64,000 bases of DNA from Candidatus Woesearchaeota archaeon (GTDB taxonomy: Archaea; Nanobdellota; Nanobdellia; Woesearchaeales; UBA9642). The stretch covers positions 1 to 64,000 of the forward strand of contig BPGB01000009.1 of NCBI GenBank assembly GCA_026002815.1, read 5' to 3'. The translations under genes were made by a program, and so were the position numbers. Under the pieces are notes generated by a model that was not told the DNA's origin, ran no database searches, and saw only the letters and a program-made list of their open reading frames with translations. Of this stretch, positions 3,202 to 24,948 are shown in pieces (position 1 is the first letter of the stretch; every line of letters begins with the position of its first letter).

Positions 3202-3231
3202 GTTTCAATTTTAAAATTATTTATACATTTG
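3202..3231 (+). promoter_or_regulatory. Candidate Bacteroidota promoter of the B12 operon
   Basis: TACATTTG at 3224-3231 matches the -7 consensus TAnnTTTG exactly. TTTC at 3202-3205, 18 bases upstream, is a near match to the -33 TTTG. It sits just before the cobalamin aptamer, where the leader transcript should start. Confidence 0.5.
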
Positions 3232-3235
3232 CATC

Positions 3236-3405
3236 ACTTTGGTTTTTGATGTAATATCAAAATTAAAAGGGAATCCGGTGTAAATCCGGAGCTGTACCCG
3301 CAGCTGTAAGTTCTGTAAAAGCTTTTCGAATTCTTTTGCCACTGTACACAATAAATGTATGGGAAGGCTTCGAAAAGTAGAACAAGCCAGAAGACCTGCC
3401 AAGGT
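3236..3405 (+). ncRNA. Cobalamin riboswitch aptamer
   Basis: All conserved blocks of the cobalamin (B12) aptamer are present in order: GGGAATCCGGTG, AATCCGGAGCTG, CCCGCAGC, GCCACTG, ATGGGAAGGC, AGCCAGAAGACCTGCC. The closing helix P1 can form between ACTTTGG (3236-3242) and CCAAGGT (3399-3405). Downstream, AATCAATGC (3413-3421) is perfectly complementary to GCATTGATT (3488-3496) and may be part of the expression platform. It is expected to turn off the four downstream genes when B12 is plentiful. Confidence 0.95.
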
Positions 3406-3529
3406 AAAATACAATCAATGCTTTCGGGAAAAAAAGCAGCGATAATGCAGAGTTATTTTATTCTTCGTTATTCGTTTTTATTTCCATGCATTGATTTAAA
3501 TTATTGTTTAACCATTTAATTTAAATCAC

Positions 3530-4819
3530 ATGTTTATGAAAAAAAAATTAATTTCTAAACTACTATTTACAGTTGTATTATTTACAGCAAACTTAAAGAT
3601 TGCTCAAGCACAATTTTATTTAAAACAAGCAATTATTGCTAATGGAGGAATATTTGAATTTTCAACTCCATATTCAGATAGAGCTACTGTTGGTTCGTAT
3701 AATCCTTTAACTAATACTTATCAAGTATTTGATACCATTCAGGTAGAATCAGTACAAGATGTTGTAATTGATACCAATTATGCTTATGTAGCGGCTCAAG
3801 ATAGTATTGTTAAATATAATTTAACTACTTTACAACGCGAAGCTACTGCATATTTCCCTGCAGTTAAAAAATTAGAATTACACGATAATTATTTAATGGT
3901 TGGTAAATGGTATGGCACAGGCGATTATTTTGAAGTATTTAATAAATCTAATTTACAATCAATATTTAGTATATCGCAAGTAAATCAAACCGTAAATGGA
4001 ATGGTTATGTTAGGAGATACTATGTATGTCGCATATAATATTAAAGGAACAATTGATTTATATCCTCCATTTGGGATTTATGCAGATAGTATAGGAAAAT
4101 TGGCTGCAATACATGTTCCATCTCAAACATTTGTTAGAGATATAATTTTAGGACCAAATGCAGCAGGTGCAGGTAAATCATTTGTATTTAATAATGCTGT
4201 TTATACCCTTTGCAATGAAACCAACTATTTATTTAAATATACTCCGTCTAATAATCAAATAGATTCATTTAATATCGGTATTGAAAAGTATATTCAATTA
4301 CATAATAACATGTTGTATGGAGAATTTGCAAGTGGAATAGGAGTGTACAATTTATCTACAAATACTTTACTTAGCACTCCTTCTTTAAATTTTAACTTTG
4401 TTGCGGGAGCTTATGATTTTGTAAATAATCGTTTTTATTTTACAAATACAGATTATTCAACTAATGGAATTTTGTATAGCGTTAACGAAACAAATGGAAA
4501 TGTTATAGATTCAATTAATGTAGGAATATCATGCGAAGCAATAGCTTTGCAACATTTAATAAATACGGGTGTGGAAAATGATTTTGTTGAAAAATTGAAT
4601 TTTAATATATATCCAAACCCTGTTATAAACTCTTTAAATATTCAATTATTAGAAGACGCAGAATTAATGGTGTATGACTTTAATGGTAATTTGATTTTAA
4701 ATGAAAAAATAAATTCTACTTTATACCAAATAAATACAGAAAGATGGCAGAGTGGAATTTATATTTTAAAGATTACAACACAAAACGATGTTCAAACATT
4801 TAAAATAATTAAAAATTAA
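3530..4819 (+). CDS. T9SS-sorted beta-propeller protein, first gene of the B12 operon
   Basis: A 429-residue protein with a signal peptide (about residues 1-27; an internal ATG two codons in gives the more usual MKKK start). The body has the repeated four-strand pattern of a YncE/DUF5074-like beta-propeller (for example VVIDTNYAYVAAQDSIVKYN). The last ~75 residues are a T9SS type A sorting domain (FNIYPNPV, GIYILKI). It follows the cobalamin riboswitch and precedes the receptor by 5 bases. By position and fold it could be a surface B12-binding protein comparable to BtuG of Bacteroides, but anchored through T9SS rather than by a lipid; this role is inferred. Confidence 0.8.
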   Translation: MFMKKKLISKLLFTVVLFTANLKIAQAQFYLKQAIIANGGIFEFSTPYSDRATVGSYNPLTNTYQVFDTIQVESVQDVVIDTNYAYVAAQDSIVKYNLTTLQREATAYFPAVKKLELHDNYLMVGKWYGTGDYFEVFNKSNLQSIFSISQVNQTVNGMVMLGDTMYVAYNIKGTIDLYPPFGIYADSIGKLAAIHVPSQTFVRDIILGPNAAGAGKSFVFNNAVYTLCNETNYLFKYTPSNNQIDSFNIGIEKYIQLHNNMLYGEFASGIGVYNLSTNTLLSTPSLNFNFVAGAYDFVNNRFYFTNTDYSTNGILYSVNETNGNVIDSINVGISCEAIALQHLINTGVENDFVEKLNFNIYPNPVINSLNIQLLEDAELMVYDFNGNLILNEKINSTLYQINTERWQSGIYILKITTQNDVQTFKIIKN

Positions 4820-4824
4820 AATAA

Positions 4825-6723
4825 GTGAAATTTCAAAGGTTTTTAATACTAATTATTTTTAATTATGCATACTATGTTACAAATGCGCAGGATACAATAG
4901 TATTAAAAACCTTTGAAATAAATGAATATCGTAAGCAAACACAAGACTTAACCATAAAAATTAATTATACTGATAGTATAACAAAAAAACAATTTTCATC
5001 TTCAACCTTAACTGATTTACTTTCACAAAACAGTCAATTATTTATTAAAAACTATGGTCCGGGAAGTTTAGCAACAACTGCTTTTAGAGGTGCTTCTGCT
5101 GTGCATACGGCAATTTTATGGAATGGAATAAATATTAATAGCAGTATGAATGGTTTAATAGATTTATCACTCTTGCCTGTATTTATGCTGGATGATATTT
5201 CTGTTCAGTACGGTGGTACTACTGCTCTTTGGGGAAGTGGCGCAGTTGCAGGATCTATTCAGTTAAACAATCATTCTTCTTTTAATAAAGGATTTAGTAC
5301 ATCATTAGGAACAAGTTTCGGTAGTTTCGATTCTTATTCGCAATTTGGAAAATTTGCTTATTCAAAAAATAAATTGAGTAGTGCGGTTAAATTTACAAAT
5401 ACTACATCATTAAATAATTTTGATTTTTTTAATACTTCCTTAAAACCATCGGTAAATCAAAAACAATTGCATGCAGCTTTTCAGCAACAAAATATTTTGA
5501 TTGAAAATATATTAAAGTTTTCAGAAAAATTTTATTATTCACTCAATGCATGGCATCAACAATCACAAAGAGAAATTCCACCTGTTCTATTTCAAGAAAA
5601 TTTTGGCTCAACTCAAAATGATGTAAATACTCGAATAGTTTCCGAATTAAAGTATTTAAATAAAAATTCAAAATTTATGTTTCGCAATGCTTTATTAAAT
5701 GAGCAAATTAAATTTTATGATTTTATGGCTGATAAAAATTATAATAATAAAGCATTAAATAGTATTAATGAAGCAGAACATTATTTAAAACTTAACAAAC
5801 ATATTGAAAATCATACCGGTTTAAATTATACCTATCAGCAGGCAAATTCCGAAGGTTATTTAAGCAAGCCAATTTTAAATAGATTATCATTTTTTAATTC
5901 ATGGAATTTCAGGCTAATTAATTATAGATTATTGTTAAATTTAAGTTACAGAAAAGAATGGATGTTACACCATCAAATTCCTTTCACATACTCTTTAGCA
6001 ACAACGTTTAATTTAAATGATATATTATCATTTAAAACTAATTCTGCCCGTGTATATCGAATTCCTACATTTAATGATTTATTCTGGAATCCCGGAGGCA
6101 ATCCTGACTTAAAACCTGAAGATGGTTTTACGCATGAAGGTTCTTTTATTATTTATTTGAAAGATAAATTTACAAACAATTCAATAAAACACACTTCTAC
6201 TTATTTTACAAGAATTATGAAAAACTGGATTGTATGGTTGCCGGAAAATGCTGTTTGGAAACCGCAAAACCTCATGGAGGTTTGGAGTAGGGGAGTTGAA
6301 ACTGAAAGCGAATTGAATTTTTCAATACAACCTTTACGATTTATGTTTCTGTTATCAACTTCCTATGTAGTTTCCACTTCAATGAAAGCATTGTATGATG
6401 GAGATAATTCGGTTGATAAACAATTAATATATGTTCCGATGTATAGTGGTCAAGGTAATTTCAGAATATTTTATAAAAACATGTATTTAAATTATAATAT
6501 TTCTTATACAGGTTATCGTTACACAAGTACTGATAATAGCCAGTTTCTAAATCCATACTGGATAAGTAATATATGGTTTGCTAAATCATTACAAATTAAA
6601 AAATCTCATTTCGAAATTTCTGCAAGAATAAATAATTTATTTAATGAGAATTATCAAGTTATGTTAAATAGGCCAATGCCATTACGCAATTATCAATTAG
6701 TAATTAGATATGATTTTAATTAG
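4825..6723 (+). CDS. btuB: TonB-dependent outer-membrane receptor, BtuB-like
   Basis: A 632-residue protein with a GTG start and a signal peptide ending near residue 21 (TNAQ). The plug domain is seen at about residues 60-150 (STLTDLLSQNS, FRGASAVHTAILWNGI, YGGTTALWGSGAVAGSI), followed by a 22-strand barrel rich in aromatic strand ends and a C-terminal strand ending YDFN. There is no carboxypeptidase-like N-terminal domain, so it is not SusC-like. Placement under a cobalamin riboswitch makes B12 or a corrinoid the expected substrate. It overlaps the next gene by 14 bases. Confidence 0.88.
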   Translation: MKFQRFLILIIFNYAYYVTNAQDTIVLKTFEINEYRKQTQDLTIKINYTDSITKKQFSSSTLTDLLSQNSQLFIKNYGPGSLATTAFRGASAVHTAILWNGININSSMNGLIDLSLLPVFMLDDISVQYGGTTALWGSGAVAGSIQLNNHSSFNKGFSTSLGTSFGSFDSYSQFGKFAYSKNKLSSAVKFTNTTSLNNFDFFNTSLKPSVNQKQLHAAFQQQNILIENILKFSEKFYYSLNAWHQQSQREIPPVLFQENFGSTQNDVNTRIVSELKYLNKNSKFMFRNALLNEQIKFYDFMADKNYNNKALNSINEAEHYLKLNKHIENHTGLNYTYQQANSEGYLSKPILNRLSFFNSWNFRLINYRLLLNLSYRKEWMLHHQIPFTYSLATTFNLNDILSFKTNSARVYRIPTFNDLFWNPGGNPDLKPEDGFTHEGSFIIYLKDKFTNNSIKHTSTYFTRIMKNWIVWLPENAVWKPQNLMEVWSRGVETESELNFSIQPLRFMFLLSTSYVVSTSMKALYDGDNSVDKQLIYVPMYSGQGNFRIFYKNMYLNYNISYTGYRYTSTDNSQFLNPYWISNIWFAKSLQIKKSHFEISARINNLFNENYQVMLNRPMPLRNYQLVIRYDFN

Positions 6724-7735
6724 GCTATATAAACTTATATCTATTTTTTATTTTGTTTTAACTGCTCATTTACTTTTTGCTCAGTTTCCACCACCCGTTG
6801 GGCAATTGGGTAGTACAGCTATTTATAAAGATAGCTCTGTAATTGTAGGTTGGGCTACTCATTGTACTGTTAATGTTGGTTTTCAAAATATTGCTAATAC
6901 CTCTTTAGGATTAGCTGCTGTTGGAGATAATACTTCTGCATTAGGAGTTGCAGGTTCTAATGGTATAGTTAGTTTAGGTGATGGGGGTGAAGCTATTGTT
7001 CAATTTGCACGCCCAATATTTAATGGACCTGGATGGGATTTTGCAGTATTTGAAAATTCATTTAGTGATAGTTTTTTAGAACTTGCATTTGTAGAAGTAA
7101 GTTCAGATGGAGTAAATTATTTTAGATTTCCTGCTGTTTCAAATACACAAACTACAACCCAAGTCGGTCCTTTTGACACTTTAGATGCAACTAAAATTAA
7201 TAATCTTGCAGGAAAATATAGGGCACTCTATGGTACTCCATTTGATTTGGAAGAGTTAGATAATATTGCCGGATTGGATATTAACAATGTAACGCACATA
7301 AAAATAATTGATGTGGTTGGCTCCATTCAATCGTCTTATGCCCGCTATGATAGTAATAATAATATCATAAATGACCCATGGCCAACTGAATTTGCTTCAT
7401 CAGGTTTTGATTTAGATGCTGTTGGAGTAATACATCAATTACCATTAAATGTTGTGTCAACTGAAAATAATTCATACATTCAAATTTATCCAAATCCAAT
7501 GTTTAAACATCAAACATTGTTCATCAATTTTTATTCATCAACTGATGATAATATTGAATTTGAGCTCGTAGATTTATCAGGTAATATATTACTTCAAAAA
7601 AATATTAATGGCCGGGCTAATAATTGGCTTTCAAACGCTATTAACATAAATGGAGATATTAATACGGGTATATACTTTATAAAAATTAAAAATAACTCTC
7701 ACTGCCTATATAAAAAAATAATTATTGCTGAATGA
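6710..7735 (+). CDS. T9SS-sorted cell-surface protein of the B12 operon
   Basis: A 341-residue protein with a signal peptide (cleavage after about residue 24, LLFAQ). The main domain (about 25-245) contains GPGWDFAVFENSF, VEVSSDGVNYFRFP and SGFDLDAVGVIHQ, a pattern seen in secreted Bacteroidota proteins next to B12 receptors. A type A sorting domain follows (IQIYPNPM, GIYFIKI). It lies between the receptor and a lipoprotein propeller and overlaps both. A co-receptor role like BtuH is possible but unproven; I do not recognise a catalytic site. Confidence 0.72.
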   Translation: MILIRLYKLISIFYFVLTAHLLFAQFPPPVGQLGSTAIYKDSSVIVGWATHCTVNVGFQNIANTSLGLAAVGDNTSALGVAGSNGIVSLGDGGEAIVQFARPIFNGPGWDFAVFENSFSDSFLELAFVEVSSDGVNYFRFPAVSNTQTTTQVGPFDTLDATKINNLAGKYRALYGTPFDLEELDNIAGLDINNVTHIKIIDVVGSIQSSYARYDSNNNIINDPWPTEFASSGFDLDAVGVIHQLPLNVVSTENNSYIQIYPNPMFKHQTLFINFYSSTDDNIEFELVDLSGNILLQKNINGRANNWLSNAININGDINTGIYFIKIKNNSHCLYKKIIIAE

Positions 7736-8772
7736 AATTATCTCCTTTAAAAATAGTTATATTTTTTTTCGTATTTGTATTATTTGCTTGTAGAAAAGAT
7801 AAGCCTGAGCCGATTACCCAAACTTTTTCTGCAACTTCAAACGAAAATACGGTTTTTGTTGTAAACGAAGGTAACTTTATGTTTGCCAATGCTGCATTAT
7901 CGCAAATAAATTTAGAAAACGATGAAGTAATTGAAGATATTTATAAATCAATAAATAATCAAAACTTAGGCGATGTTTTACAAAGTGTTTATGAAAATAA
8001 TAAGTATTATTATTTAATAGTAAATAACAGTTCTAAAATTGAAATTATTGATAAAAATACATTAAGAGCAAAAGCTACCATTACCGGATTAAATTCTCCG
8101 CGCTACATGCAAGTAGTATCTAATGCTAAAGCTTATGTTAGCGATTTATATGATAATGCAATTCATATTTTAGATTTAAATTCATTTTCTAAAATCGGAA
8201 GTATTTCAATCAATTCTTGGACAGAGCAAATGACATATTTGTTTGGGAAGGTATTTATTACTGCACCTAATAAAGATTATTTATATATAGTTAATGCTGA
8301 AAAAGATATTTTAATTGATAGTATTTTATTGCAAAAAAACTGCTATTCTATTTTACAAGATAAAGAAAGTAATATTTGGGTATTGTCTGCCGGAAATTCA
8401 AGTACCAATTTATCGGCAAAATTATTCAAGATAAATCCTGTAAATTTTCAAATTATAAGTACGTTTGAATTTGGATCAAATGATACACCAGGAAATTTAA
8501 AAATTAATGGAACATTAGATACATTATTTTTTTTAAATAAAGGAGTATGGTATTTACCTATCCATCAATCTTTATCTAATGCAAAAAAAATTATTGCACT
8601 TCAAAATTCTAATTATTACGGCTTAGGAATACATCCGCAATCAAGTGAAATATTTGTTGCCGATGCACTCGATTACGTACAAAAAGGTAACGTTTTGAGA
8701 TATAACTCAAAAGGAGAATTAATAAAATCTTATAAAGTAGGAATTATCCCTTCCGATTTTGTATTCAGATAA
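7732..8772 (+). CDS. Lipoprotein beta-propeller (YncE/DUF5074-like), BtuG-like candidate
   Basis: A 346-residue protein with a lipoprotein signal (hydrophobic stretch, then FACRK; lipidated Cys at about residue 20) followed by an acidic-poor linker. The rest is a seven-blade-type propeller with repeats such as SKIEIIDKNTLRAKATI and NAIHILDLNSFSKIGSI. In Bacteroides thetaiotaomicron, BtuG is a surface lipoprotein propeller that binds cobalamin and docks on BtuB; this protein has the same architecture and operon context. Its start overlaps the previous stop (ATGA). The operon ends here, one base from the end of the convergent gene. Confidence 0.78.
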   Translation: MKLSPLKIVIFFFVFVLFACRKDKPEPITQTFSATSNENTVFVVNEGNFMFANAALSQINLENDEVIEDIYKSINNQNLGDVLQSVYENNKYYYLIVNNSSKIEIIDKNTLRAKATITGLNSPRYMQVVSNAKAYVSDLYDNAIHILDLNSFSKIGSISINSWTEQMTYLFGKVFITAPNKDYLYIVNAEKDILIDSILLQKNCYSILQDKESNIWVLSAGNSSTNLSAKLFKINPVNFQIISTFEFGSNDTPGNLKINGTLDTLFFLNKGVWYLPIHQSLSNAKKIIALQNSNYYGLGIHPQSSEIFVADALDYVQKGNVLRYNSKGELIKSYKVGIIPSDFVFR

Positions 8773-8773
8773 A

Positions 8774-10852
8774 TTAATGCTGAATAATTAATTTTTTGGT
8801 ATTTACACCATTCAGCCCTTTAATTTCAATAAAATAAATACCGCTTTCAATATTACTTACATCTATGTTCATTTCATCTGCAGTGCATATTGTGTTATAG
8901 ATATTTTTTCCCTTTAAATCATAAATTGAGATTTCTTTTCTAATATAATTATTAAATTTTAATGTTACAACATTATTTGATGGATTAGGATATAATTGAA
9001 AAATATTGTCTGTAATAATTTCGTACATATTATTTAAGTTATATCCAATATTGATGTCATCTAAATAAAAATTGTTTCCACCGCCATTTTCAAATACAAA
9101 ACGTATTCTAAATGGAGTGTTTGCTTGTATGCCGTTCATATTTGTTATAAAATCAGTTTTCCACTGTGTTGCATTCGGAGTAAATGGTGTTGATTGGTCG
9201 GGCGCTGTTGATAAATTATTTGCATTTATAGATTTTTTTATTTGCCATGTATTACCGCAATTACTCGTTAAAAAAATATTTAATCGGTCGTTTGATGTGC
9301 TGTCTTTTCGTGCATAAGCATATTTAAAACTTACCTGCAAATTTGTTATATTACTAAAATTATAAACAGGACTTATTAATTCATCTTTACTGCCATTTTC
9401 AGTAATGGAATGGTTATTTATCCAAACAGATTTATTACCGCTAAAACCAACATTTGAATTTAATTCAAAACCGGCATCATTGTGCGGATTTACTGCAAAC
9501 CAATTGTTGGTAATTAAATCAGAAAAGCTTTCAAAATTTTCTGCAAAAGGAATAGCGTTTCCTATGTTTGATAATACAGTTATATAAGCTGTTTCATTTT
9601 TGGTTAAAGTGTTATTACCATCGCTAACTTGTAATGTTACAGCATACGTTCCCGGTGTTGAATACGTAACAGTAACTGAAGAATCGCTGGAAATGGATGG
9701 TGTACCCCCTTGAAAATTCCAGCTTCTGCTTTGTATTCCATGATATGATACATCAGCAAATTTTACTTGTTGCCCCGCGCATATAACCTGTTTATCTGCT
9801 ACAAAATCGGCTGCACAAAAAAAGTTAGAACCATCTGTTCCGGTTGCCGCCAAATTAGTTGCTGTCCATAAATTATTTCTTCCTGCAATGGGTGAATTTA
9901 AACAAGCATGCATTCTGTCTCTTTGTCCATAAGTAAGCATGCGTGCACAATAGGCATAATCCATAAAATTTTGAACATTATCTAAAGTATCATCGCACGA
10001 TGTACCATTTAAATTACAGGTTTGCCATCCAATTGTATTTGGAGTATCCAAAACATCATCATCAAAATTACAATTGGCTTGTTGCGCAACGGGTAAATAA
10101 TAAAATCCGGGTACATTGTTTCCGCCCCATATATGTTGCAGGTTAAAATAATGTCCTAATTCATGTGTTAAAACTACCGATTTAAATGGGGTAGAAGTTC
10201 CAATGCTACCTAAATAGCTATGTTGAATTACAATTCCATCCCATTGCGGTAATGTATCAGCAGTGCTTGGTAAAAGAGCGTGACCTGCTAATCCTGCCGC
10301 TTCTGCACATACATAAATGTTTAAATATTTGGTAGGATCCCAGTGTATTAAACTTTTTACCTGATGATCGCCAATATAAGTGAGTGTAGATGCAATTCTG
10401 TTTATACCGCTGTGGCAATTTCCATTAGGGTCTTTTTGTGCCAGTACTAACTCTATTTCACAATCTGCCGCTCTTGGTTTAAAAAAAGGAACGATATCTG
10501 TTGTGTCAGGGTTTTGCTTGCGTAAATTTCTATTGGCTACTCTTATTGCATCATATATCTGTGCATTTGAAATATTTTCTGTACCATAATTATGTATAAT
10601 ATGAAATACAACCGGAATTTTATACACAATTGATTTATTGTCTTTTTGAGTTATAAAATTGCGGGTAAACTCATTTAAAAAATTATGATTTTGAATAATC
10701 TTATTATTTAGCTCCGGATGGTTTTTAAATATTTCATAATGTAACTCATCAGTTCCGCAAAACTGTTTTTTAACTTCGTTATAATAATTTTGAGCATATA
10801 TAACAGTATTCAACAATAAGGTGGTTAATAAAAATAAAATAAGCTTTATCAT
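8774..10852 (-). CDS. Secreted M43 (pappalysin-type) metalloprotease with PKD and T9SS domains
   Basis: A 692-residue protein with a signal peptide (cleavage after about residue 20, YAQ). The extended zinc motif HELGHYFNLQH is at residues 230-240, and a Met-turn candidate FMDYAYC lies about 60 residues later, as in M43 proteases. A PKD domain follows (about 355-430: SYHGIQSRSWNF, YSTPGTYAVTL), then a jelly-roll-like domain, then a type A sorting domain (FQLYPNPS, GIYFIEI). It is expected to be exported and anchored at the surface by T9SS. It runs towards the B12 operon with no spacer. Confidence 0.9.
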   Translation of the reverse strand: MIKLILFLLTTLLLNTVIYAQNYYNEVKKQFCGTDELHYEIFKNHPELNNKIIQNHNFLNEFTRNFITQKDNKSIVYKIPVVFHIIHNYGTENISNAQIYDAIRVANRNLRKQNPDTTDIVPFFKPRAADCEIELVLAQKDPNGNCHSGINRIASTLTYIGDHQVKSLIHWDPTKYLNIYVCAEAAGLAGHALLPSTADTLPQWDGIVIQHSYLGSIGTSTPFKSVVLTHELGHYFNLQHIWGGNNVPGFYYLPVAQQANCNFDDDVLDTPNTIGWQTCNLNGTSCDDTLDNVQNFMDYAYCARMLTYGQRDRMHACLNSPIAGRNNLWTATNLAATGTDGSNFFCAADFVADKQVICAGQQVKFADVSYHGIQSRSWNFQGGTPSISSDSSVTVTYSTPGTYAVTLQVSDGNNTLTKNETAYITVLSNIGNAIPFAENFESFSDLITNNWFAVNPHNDAGFELNSNVGFSGNKSVWINNHSITENGSKDELISPVYNFSNITNLQVSFKYAYARKDSTSNDRLNIFLTSNCGNTWQIKKSINANNLSTAPDQSTPFTPNATQWKTDFITNMNGIQANTPFRIRFVFENGGGNNFYLDDINIGYNLNNMYEIITDNIFQLYPNPSNNVVTLKFNNYIRKEISIYDLKGKNIYNTICTADEMNIDVSNIESGIYFIEIKGLNGVNTKKLIIQH

Positions 10853-12151: not shown

Positions 12152-13087
12152 ATGAGTCAACTCAGCGTAAAACACTTACTAGGAATAAAAGACCTTACAG
12201 AACAGGATATTCAATTAATTTTTAAAACAGCTGATAATTTTAAAGATGTAATAAATCGTCCTATAAAAAAAGTTCCATCGCTTAGAGATATTACCATTGC
12301 CAATTTATTTTTCGAAAATTCAACACGAACCAAACTTTCATTTGAATTAGCAGAGAAAAGACTTTCTGCCGATACAATAAGTTTTTCAGCTTCAGGTTCT
12401 TCTATTTCAAAAGGAGAAACACTTATTGATACTGTTAATAACATTCTTGCCATGAAAGTGGATATGATTGTTATGCGTCATCCAAATCCAGGGGCAGGAG
12501 TTTTTTTATCCAAACACGTAAAATCTATAATAATTAATGCCGGAGATGGCGCACACGAACATCCAACACAAGCTTTATTAGATGCATTTTCGATAAGAGA
12601 AAAATTGGGTGATGTAAAAGGAAAAAAAGTAGTAATAGTAGGCGATATTTTACATTCACGGGTTGCACTATCCAATATATTTTGTCTCCAAAAATTAGGG
12701 GCAGAAGTTATGGTGTGTGGACCAACTACACTTATGCCTCGCTATATATCAAGTCTTGGTGTAAAAGTAGAACATGATTTAGTAAAAGCTTTAAAATGGT
12801 GTGATGTGGCAAATATGCTGCGCATACAGTTGGAGCGTCAGGATATTAAATATTTTCCATCATTAAGAGAATACAGCATGCTTTATGGATTAGATAAAAA
12901 CTTGCTTGACTCATTAAACAAGCCAATTACAATTATGCACCCCGGACCAATAAACAGAGGGGTAGAAATTACCAGTGATGTTGCAGACAGCGAACATTCA
13001 ATCATCTTAAATCAGGTAGAAAACGGAGTTGCTATTCGAATGGCTGTGCTATACCTTTTAGCCGGTAGAGCAGATAAGCAAGGTTAA
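12152..13087 (+). CDS. pyrB: Aspartate carbamoyltransferase catalytic chain
   Basis: Counted from the ATG at 12152 (311 residues), giving the usual N-terminus SVKHLLGIKDL; an upstream in-frame ATG at 12101 lies inside pyrR and is unlikely. The carbamoyl-phosphate motif FFENSTRTKLSFE is at about residues 54-66, DGAHEHPTQALLD at about 132-144, and HPGPINRG near residue 268. It catalyses carbamoyl phosphate plus L-aspartate to N-carbamoyl aspartate, the first committed step of pyrimidine synthesis. No pyrI is seen nearby. Confidence 0.95.
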   Translation: MSQLSVKHLLGIKDLTEQDIQLIFKTADNFKDVINRPIKKVPSLRDITIANLFFENSTRTKLSFELAEKRLSADTISFSASGSSISKGETLIDTVNNILAMKVDMIVMRHPNPGAGVFLSKHVKSIIINAGDGAHEHPTQALLDAFSIREKLGDVKGKKVVIVGDILHSRVALSNIFCLQKLGAEVMVCGPTTLMPRYISSLGVKVEHDLVKALKWCDVANMLRIQLERQDIKYFPSLREYSMLYGLDKNLLDSLNKPITIMHPGPINRGVEITSDVADSEHSIILNQVENGVAIRMAVLYLLAGRADKQG

Positions 13088-24019: not shown

Positions 24020-24156
24020 TAATTAAAACTTATAGAGATTGATAGAGAATTATTGAAATGATAAAATTCTAAACTCTAGATTCGAAAATTCATTCATTCA
24101 TTCATTAAATTCATCAAATCAACTAATAGCTATTTTAATAAATAGCTGATAAACTA
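24020..24156 (+). repeat. Dispersed AT-rich intergenic repeat, copy 2
   Basis: Shares with the minus strand of 13240-13410 the ordered blocks GATTGATAGAGA, AAACTCTAGATTCGAAAATTCA, TTCATCAAATCAACTAATAG and ATAAACTAAAT. It also contains a CATT microsatellite (CATTCATTCATTCATT). It fills the gap between mpl and the BtuF-like gene, and its end reaches the stop codon of the latter. Confidence 0.6.
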
Positions 24157-24948
24157 AATAGTTATTTCATTTCGAAGTTGTTTAAAATAATTGGCAGAAT
24201 AAGTTAATCTAGAGCCATACCAAGAAAACATTTCTCCATCTACCAATTTAACAATAGCATTTGGGCAAATGCTTTTAAAATAAGCAACGTGTTTTTCTTT
24301 AAAAGGAAATGGTTCTGATGACAAAAGTATTAATTCAGGATTGGCTATTTTGAGTTGCTCTTCTGTGATTTCAGGATAGCGTTCCATGTTTTTAAATACA
24401 TTATCAAATTTACACAGCTCAAGCATGGAATGTATAAACGTATTATTGCCTGCTGCCATTATTGGATTGTACCAGATAAAATAAGCTGTTTTTAAAGTTT
24501 TTTGTTCAACAATACTTTTTTCAAATCTTGAAAATTCTTGTTTAATTAAATTTATTATTTCTTTAGCTTTAGGGCTTGCATCGGTAATTTTGCCAATTGC
24601 TTCAATCATGTTTAAAGCATCGTCCAGTGAGTAAATATCGCTTATCCAAACCGGAAAATATTTTTGCAGCTCCTCAATATCTTCTTTGATATTTTCTTCT
24701 TTGTTGGCAATAATTAAGTCAGGGTTTAAGGCTTTTATTTTTTCAATATTCAGTTTTTTTGTACCGCCTATTCTTTCTTTTTCCCTAAACCATTTTTCGG
24801 GATGAATACAAAATTTAGTTATCCCAATTACTTCATCATTTAATCCTAAATCAAATAACAATTCGGTTTGCGAGGGAACAACAGAAATTATCTTTTTGGG
24901 TATTTCAAAAAGTTTAATAATATTTCCGTTTTGGTCGGTAAATTGCAT
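24154..24948 (-). CDS. Helical-backbone periplasmic-binding-like protein (BtuF/FepB type)
   Basis: A 264-residue protein matching the N-lobe pattern VVPSQTELLFDLGLNDEVIGIT and the middle helix of class III solute-binding proteins (INLIKQEFSRFEKS), with ALNPDLIIANKE and NPELILLSSEPFPF in the usual positions. I see no signal peptide or lipobox: it starts MQFTDQNGNIIKLFEIP. It is therefore either cytosolic or the true start lies elsewhere. Many Bacteroidota have such a leaderless BtuF-like protein annotated as cobalamin-binding. No permease or ATPase gene is adjacent. Confidence 0.75.
   Translation of the reverse strand: MQFTDQNGNIIKLFEIPKKIISVVPSQTELLFDLGLNDEVIGITKFCIHPEKWFREKERIGGTKKLNIEKIKALNPDLIIANKEENIKEDIEELQKYFPVWISDIYSLDDALNMIEAIGKITDASPKAKEIINLIKQEFSRFEKSIVEQKTLKTAYFIWYNPIMAAGNNTFIHSMLELCKFDNVFKNMERYPEITEEQLKIANPELILLSSEPFPFKEKHVAYFKSICPNAIVKLVDGEMFSWYGSRLTYSANYFKQLRNEITI

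Follow-up and report, generated by a model that had tools for sequence, protein, structure and literature searches.

What do proteins marked for the type IX secretion system (T9SS) contribute to a gene cluster placed behind a cobalamin riboswitch? The question is raised by a locus near the start of the window, i.e., the whole stretch of 64,000 nucleotides analysed here (contig BPGB01000009.1, positions 1 to 64,000; assembly GCA_026002815.1, deposited as Candidatus Woesearchaeota archaeon). The locus consists of the riboswitch and four genes, P0001 to P0004. A preliminary description had read it as a B12 capture operon in which T9SS-secreted proteins do the job of the lipoproteins BtuG and BtuH of Bacteroides. 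The best reading, supported by the results below and given a rough probability of 0.82, is a B12-repressible operon for cobamide capture and outer-membrane import, in which P0001 and P0003 are accessory proteins exported by T9SS and BtuG is a lipoprotein. It is strengthened by the BtuH-type domain of P0003 and by the conservation of gene neighbourhoods. The replacement of lipoproteins by T9SS holds in part: the accessory proteins are T9SS-tailed, but the BtuG lid remains a lipoprotein. The T9SS proteins stand in for accessory binders (BtuH, BtuJ) and not for the lid.

Operon layout

The features of the locus are as follows.

3223-3417, + strand: cobalamin riboswitch aptamer RF00174 (121.5 bits against a gathering threshold of 31.5, E 6e-30, full model 1-189)
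3405-3532, + strand: leader, from the aptamer to the first start codon, with a long alternative stem (fold z-score -5.22)
3420-3437, + strand: hairpin with a CGGG loop (3425-3428), directly 3' of the aptamer
3530-4819, + strand: P0001, signal peptide, BtuG-related β-propeller and T9SS type A sorting domain
4607-4810, + strand: T9SS C-terminal sorting domain of P0001 (residues 360-427; 53.7 bits against a cut-off of 23)
4825-6723, + strand: P0002, BtuB-type TonB-dependent receptor with a GTG start (plug and barrel above Pfam cut-offs)
6710-7735, + strand: P0003, signal peptide, BtuH-like domain and T9SS type A sorting domain
6782-7459, + strand: BtuH-like domain of P0003 (226 residues, beginning at the presumed mature N-terminus)
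7484-7726, + strand: T9SS C-terminal sorting domain of P0003 (residues 259-339; 44.6 bits against a cut-off of 23)
7732-8772, + strand: P0004, BtuG (DUF5074) surface lipoprotein (Pfam 64.5 bits against a cut-off of 27.2)

The aptamer, complete as first described, is the single RF00174 match in the whole assembly. The four same-strand genes 3' of it are packed as tightly as the preliminary description had it, with a 5-base gap between P0001 and P0002, a 14-base overlap between P0002 and P0003 and a 4-base ATGA overlap between P0003 and P0004.

The receptor and its lipoprotein lid

The best solved relatives of P0002 are the BtuB chains 8p97, 8p98 and 8bmx of Bacteroides thetaiotaomicron (about 210 bits). 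As it misses the TIGR01779 equivalog cut-off (93.9 versus 599.7 bits, with BtuB2's own score not compared), the protein was filed as BtuB-type and not as a TIGR01779 equivalog.

P0004 matches the BtuG chain 8bmx_D with 188 bits (E 1.8e-54). Its lipobox cysteine, Cys20 (LFACRKD), was read from the sequence; in the BtuG set, 49 of 50 sequences have a cysteine aligned with BtuG2 Cys32. At the pocket aromatics of BtuG2, P0004 keeps Tyr316 and aligns Ala and Thr with Trp194 and Trp272, two positions that are also not kept across the 50-sequence set. Judged by these matches, P0004 is a BtuG. The BtuB-like receptor and the lipoprotein propeller were thus recognised correctly at the outset.

A BtuH-like domain in a T9SS-sorted protein

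The second T9SS-sorted surface protein of the preliminary description, P0003, has its sorting domain well above the curated cut-off and proves to be BtuH-like, not a propeller. Its presumed mature N-terminus is Gln and it lacks a lipobox. The N-terminal domain belongs to no Pfam family (two isolated weak hits among 58 aligned sequences), a plain sequence search of the PDB returned no useful relative, and the plasmids searched for P0003 gave no match. Relatives were collected by a genome scan with P0003, and the best 80 of 249 were taken as relative loci. Alignment A1 was picked by eye and holds 57 of these 80 plus the window protein; the 23 not used were near-duplicates or frames that looked broken or short. 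A model of the domain built from A1 with AlphaFold2 (AF2) reached a predicted local distance difference test score (pLDDT) of 95.5 and a predicted template modelling score (pTM) of 0.92, whereas single-sequence AF2 of the full P0003 gave a pLDDT of only 44.5.

Searched with Foldseek, the domain model has BtuH2 (7biz) on top (E 9.8e-4). VIA-align placed 7biz_A first (Z 12.5 over 158 residues, root-mean-square deviation 3.0) and residues 393-660 of 8blw_B second (Z 11.3), followed by a CBM32 (Z 9.5). In PMC10404256, this 8blw_B segment of BtuG1 is referred to as a BtuH domain.

A hidden Markov model (HMM) was made from six BtuH domains of two Bacteroides finegoldii plasmids and of Persicobacter plasmids; one of the B. 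finegoldii proteins is identical to the 7biz chain over residues 103-593 and the other is a BtuG1-type protein. Run against the 1,457 open reading frames (ORFs) of the 80 loci and the ORFs of the window, it matched 74 of the 78 P0003-family ORFs as well as P0003 itself (E 1.9e-6), and nothing outside the family at E≤10. Comparison of the P0003-family profile with BtuH in hhalign gave 95.3% (E 2.2e-8), and the control pairs P0003-DUF4465, P0001-BtuH, BtuG-BtuH, P0003-BtuG and DUF4465-BtuH stayed at or below 2%. Two B12 contacts of BtuH2, Asn399 and Phe401 (PMC8941943), have their counterparts conserved in the family, as Asn in 58/58 and Phe in 56/58 sequences. Profile and modelled fold together indicate that P0003 is a distant BtuH relative, a T9SS-sorted protein with a domain of the BtuH superfamily. 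Lacking a lipobox and having a T9SS tail instead, it was filed under the superfamily and not as BtuH. A DUF4465 identity was considered for the domain and rejected (0.5-1.5% probability against DUF4465 profiles).

Matches to the LIC_13355 family lipoprotein model (NCBIfam NF033170), whose name we take to be a Leptospira one, were found for 35 of 58 P0003-family members at E≤0.01 (best 4.3e-8); P0003 itself scores 17 bits, far under the curated cut-off of 120. From these matches, the LIC_13355 lipoproteins may be corrinoid binders of the BtuH superfamily. A Persicobacter BtuH-like protein also matches the model weakly (0.011).

The T9SS-sorted propeller

The sorting domain of P0001 is likewise above the curated cut-offs, with 49.4 bits versus 27 for Por_Secre_tail in addition to the score listed above. 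The propeller was not confirmed by Pfam and NCBIfam scans of the single protein and was seen by profile comparison with BtuG. In hhalign the P0001-like profile aligns with the BtuG set over 295 columns (98.6%, E 1.4e-15), a PDB search with this profile (A4) put BtuG1 and 3dsm on top, and a strict HMM of 11 P0001-like propellers, run against the ORFs, matches ten BtuG proteins and, apart from its own members, nothing more at E≤1e-3. Two propellers with different anchors in one operon, the T9SS-tailed P0001 and the lipoprotein P0004, are accordingly present as first described.

P0001 has no lipobox, and conserved BtuG residues are replaced in it; for both reasons it was filed as BtuG-related and not as BtuG. 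The profile evidence marks it as a BtuG-related propeller with a remodelled pocket, and its corrinoid binding is less certain than that of P0003. Comparison of P0001 with a PKD/DUF5074 protein (L106:13982-15292) gave 4.4%, i.e., no support. Kinship of the P0001-like proteins with DUF4465 was dismissed, the match (19.1%, 24 columns near the N-terminus) being taken as signal-peptide noise.

Conservation of the arrangement

Nearly all of the 80 loci are entered under names of Bacteroidota groups; among those that are not, one is entered as Chlorobiota, one as Gammaproteobacteria and two as 'uncultured bacterium'. P0003-family ORFs were identified in 78/80. BtuB is encoded in 59 loci, BtuG in 57, DUF4465 in 50 and P0001-like proteins in 10, the ORFs of the latter type being separated from BtuG by best score and DUF4465 identity being confirmed with Pfam in 7 proteins (31 DUF4465 proteins, from 31 of the 50 loci, form alignment A2). 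A riboswitch was counted in 56 loci, using a consensus expression on all 80 and cmscan on 18, and this count includes at least a few unverified sites; cmscan detected the aptamer in 10/18. At least one of these five B12 markers accompanies the family in 73/80 loci. The order seen most often is riboswitch-BtuB-DUF4465-P0003-type-BtuG. P0001-like genes precede the P0003-type gene in relatives; in the window, the two are separated by BtuB. DUF4465 and P0001-like genes were never found together (0/80). Five P0003-type genes stand alone behind a riboswitch of their own (L052, L054, L071, L073, L075), and in L026 such a gene is followed by genes for CobT, CobS and a histidine phosphatase. The best relative, L025, has 86% identity over the P0003 domain.

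T9SS tails are carried by 73/74 unfused P0003-type proteins (the remaining one, in L087, runs up to a contig edge), 45/46 DUF4465 proteins, all ten P0001-like proteins (10/10) and 4/4 fusions of DUF4465 with P0003-type domains (L037:8308-9912, L040:7771-9435, L045:5946-7610, L059:4315-6096), and by none of the 57 BtuG proteins (0/57). The fusions, which account for four of the 50 DUF4465 loci, would each give a single cargo two putative B12 sites. SprA_N (PF14349), a marker of the T9SS translocon, is encoded in 24/24 relative genomes tested, which represent 24 of the 80 loci. T9SS-tailed accessory proteins together with a lipoprotein BtuG are not peculiar to the window genome and are widespread among T9SS-bearing Bacteroidota.

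BtuH-like proteins with apparent lipoboxes were also identified on Persicobacter plasmids (L107:6133-6954, L108:3456-4577, L108:5308-6822, L109:4818-5924), so lipoprotein-type BtuH appears to exist outside gut Bacteroidales as well. The viral contigs searched for BtuG or BtuH encoded neither.

The leader RNA

We take a regulatory kissing-loop hairpin to be a feature of the cobalamin riboswitch class, and on this basis the hairpin at 3420-3437 is probably the kissing-loop partner of the aptamer. Its CGGG loop (3425-3428) is complementary to CCCG at 3297-3300. Among 53 conserved 3' box sites, the window included and a few being likely false box matches, CGGG occurs within 70 nucleotides downstream in 35 (6.6 expected) and is hairpin-borne in 33; CCCG lies upstream of the box in 42. 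The alternative stem of the leader and the hairpin are mutually exclusive, and 0/200 shuffles folded as well as the leader (3405-3532), which, going by the predicted structures, is a possible expression platform.

Proposed mechanism and alternatives

When intracellular cobalamin is low, the riboswitch would permit expression of the operon. P0002 and P0004 would form an outer-membrane transporter with a lipoprotein lid, comparable to the BtuB-BtuG lid mechanism described in B. thetaiotaomicron (PMC10404256). The BtuH-type P0003 and the BtuG-type propeller P0001 would pass the outer membrane via T9SS, be cleaved at their C-terminal sorting domains and either stay on the surface or be released. 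They would capture cobamides there and pass them on to BtuG/BtuB.

Several observations weigh against this scheme. Among the 11 P0001-like proteins, Glu at BtuG2 position 55 is replaced by Gly in 11/11, Gly89 by Gln in 10/11 and Asn108 by Asp in 11/11; with such BtuG-conserved residues lost, P0001 may bind differently or not at all. Of the eight BtuH2 contact residues that have been published, six fall outside the sequence alignment with BtuH, which spans only about 50 residues; one of the six, Gln333, is matched no more than loosely (Gln in 32/58). Seven of the 80 loci are without a B12 marker (L026, L066, L067, L070, L079, L083, L090), and L026 among them is the locus with cobT and cobS. Furthermore, in B. 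thetaiotaomicron not every homologue binds: BtuK1 did and BtuK2 did not (PMC12751083).

The alternative that survives best, which we nevertheless consider unlikely, is that only BtuB and BtuG touch B12, while P0001 and P0003 are surface proteins under the same control with a different binding target, be it a glycan, a foreign B12-binding protein or a partner cell. The residues lost from P0001 would fit it, as would the likeness of the P0003 fold to CBM32/discoidin carbohydrate-binding domains (Z up to 9.5) and the precedent of the non-binding, locus-encoded BtuK2 and BtuL of B. thetaiotaomicron (PMC12751083). However, BtuH outscores the carbohydrate modules (Z 12.5 and 11.3 versus 9.5) and is matched by sequence too, the Asn399 and Phe401 equivalents are retained, and lone P0003-family genes lie behind their own riboswitch or adjoin cobT/cobS.

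It is highly improbable that the receptor takes another corrinoid-like or metal chelate (cobinamide, haem, cobalt), the riboswitch merely reporting cobamide status. The low TIGR01779 score of P0002 and the additional binding of cobinamide by BtuG2 (PMC10404256) would agree with it, but the B12 pair of B. thetaiotaomicron comprises the best solved relatives of P0002 and P0004, and the operon partners are of BtuH and BtuG type, with DUF4465 in relatives. Equally implausible are vestigial or misread T9SS tails that would leave P0001 and P0003 in the periplasm, given tails that score well above curated cut-offs and occur on almost all members of three separate accessory families but on no BtuG, and the SprA_N marker in every relative genome tested.

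The reading as a B12-controlled operon whose accessory proteins are sorted by T9SS may be taken a step further, to an extension that we hold to be less likely than not. Throughout T9SS-bearing Bacteroidota, accessory B12 binders (BtuH-like, DUF4465 and BtuG-like propeller) might be T9SS cargo that is released from the cell or stays on its surface at a distance from the transporter, acting as diffusible or shared corrinoid carriers, the BtuG lid alone being fixed at BtuB by a lipid anchor. P0001-like and DUF4465 proteins do not occur together in any of the 80 loci and both are sometimes encoded by the first gene behind the riboswitch; on these grounds they might then serve interchangeably as first-line binders.

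Relation to known B12 systems

The BtuB2G2 and BtuB3G3 loci of B. thetaiotaomicron likewise pair a TonB-dependent receptor with a DUF5074 lipoprotein lid in a riboswitch-controlled operon (PMC10404256, PMC12751083); they differ in the lipidation signals of their accessory proteins (table in PMC12751083), in place of which T9SS tails are present here. With BtuH2 (7biz) and the BtuH domain of BtuG1 (8blw), P0003 shares the fold, a local sequence motif, the Asn399/Phe401 equivalents and the B12 gene context; in contrast, it has no lipobox, no PKD domains, a shorter domain, a T9SS sorting domain and remote homology only. DUF4465/BtuJ proteins are T9SS-tailed accessory proteins in the same operons of relatives, whereas the window operon contains no DUF4465 gene according to Pfam, and P0003 is unrelated to them by profile. 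The LIC_13355 family (NF033170) shares model matches with the P0003 family, and is, unlike P0003, a lipoprotein family by name.

We take IPR026444 to be the entry for the T9SS tail. It is carried by 229 of 824 DUF4465 proteins according to Juodeikis et al. (PMC12751083), so that T9SS tails on DUF4465/BtuJ-type B12-binding proteins are already published. Clarke et al. (PMC13398666) reported that diverse DUF4465 proteins bind B12, one from Fluviicola included, and that DUF4465 genes are co-located with PF16819 propellers and TonB receptors. Putnam et al. (PMC8941943) described the B12-binding domain of BtuH2 as then without known structural homologues. No paper on T9SS-sorted BtuH-like proteins or BtuG-like propellers was found in the open-licence literature. 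What is added here is the placement of P0003 in the BtuH superfamily and a widespread rule, namely a lipid-anchored lid with T9SS-tailed accessory proteins.

The details of B12 scavenging in Bacteroidota were established in gut Bacteroides, with lipoproteins as the accessory binders. The version described here, widely conserved beyond gut Bacteroides, would mark these binders for type IX export, which makes for a testable rule: the lid by lipid anchor, the extra binders by T9SS. The highly conserved P0003 family, for which Pfam has no model, also gains a probable function, and this in turn hints at what the LIC_13355 lipoproteins might do.

Origin of the contig

The window contig (70,229 bases) encodes a bacterial LigA and matches Bacteroidota loci. 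Another contig of the assembly (C1) encodes an archaeal GatE (672 bits versus 456) and a CDC48 ATPase, and the use of Shine-Dalgarno sequences is strongly different between contigs. The assigned relatives of the assembly have small genomes of 0.6-2.1 Mb. Judging from gene content, we take the window contig as a Bacteroidota contaminant misbinned in an archaeal-looking assembly. The bin itself yielded no T9SS translocon (PF14349, NF033710), a further point against T9SS export that is uninformative given the archaeal look of the bin; of the two models, PF14349 had a positive control (24/24 relative genomes positive). Because of its archaeal GatE and CDC48 ATPase and its small-genome relatives, the bin was set aside as evidence on T9SS.

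Neighbouring genes

Convergent with the operon, a T9SS-tailed M43 metalloprotease with a PKD domain is encoded at 8774-10852 (-); in L025 its position is occupied by a T9SS-tailed gene of 692 residues. Upstream, a DUF805b RNA motif (RF02914) was identified at 1455-1487 (+; 37.8 bits versus 35.6), followed by a 71-residue ORF (1509-1724). Distant from the operon, a BtuF-like helical-backbone substrate-binding protein is encoded at 24154-24948 (-), with 133.8 bits for NF038402 (cut-off 30) and 83.5 for the BtuF model, below its cut-off of 234. In L054, a similar Peripla_BP_2 gene (12154-12933) is separated from the lone P0003-type gene by about 2 kb.

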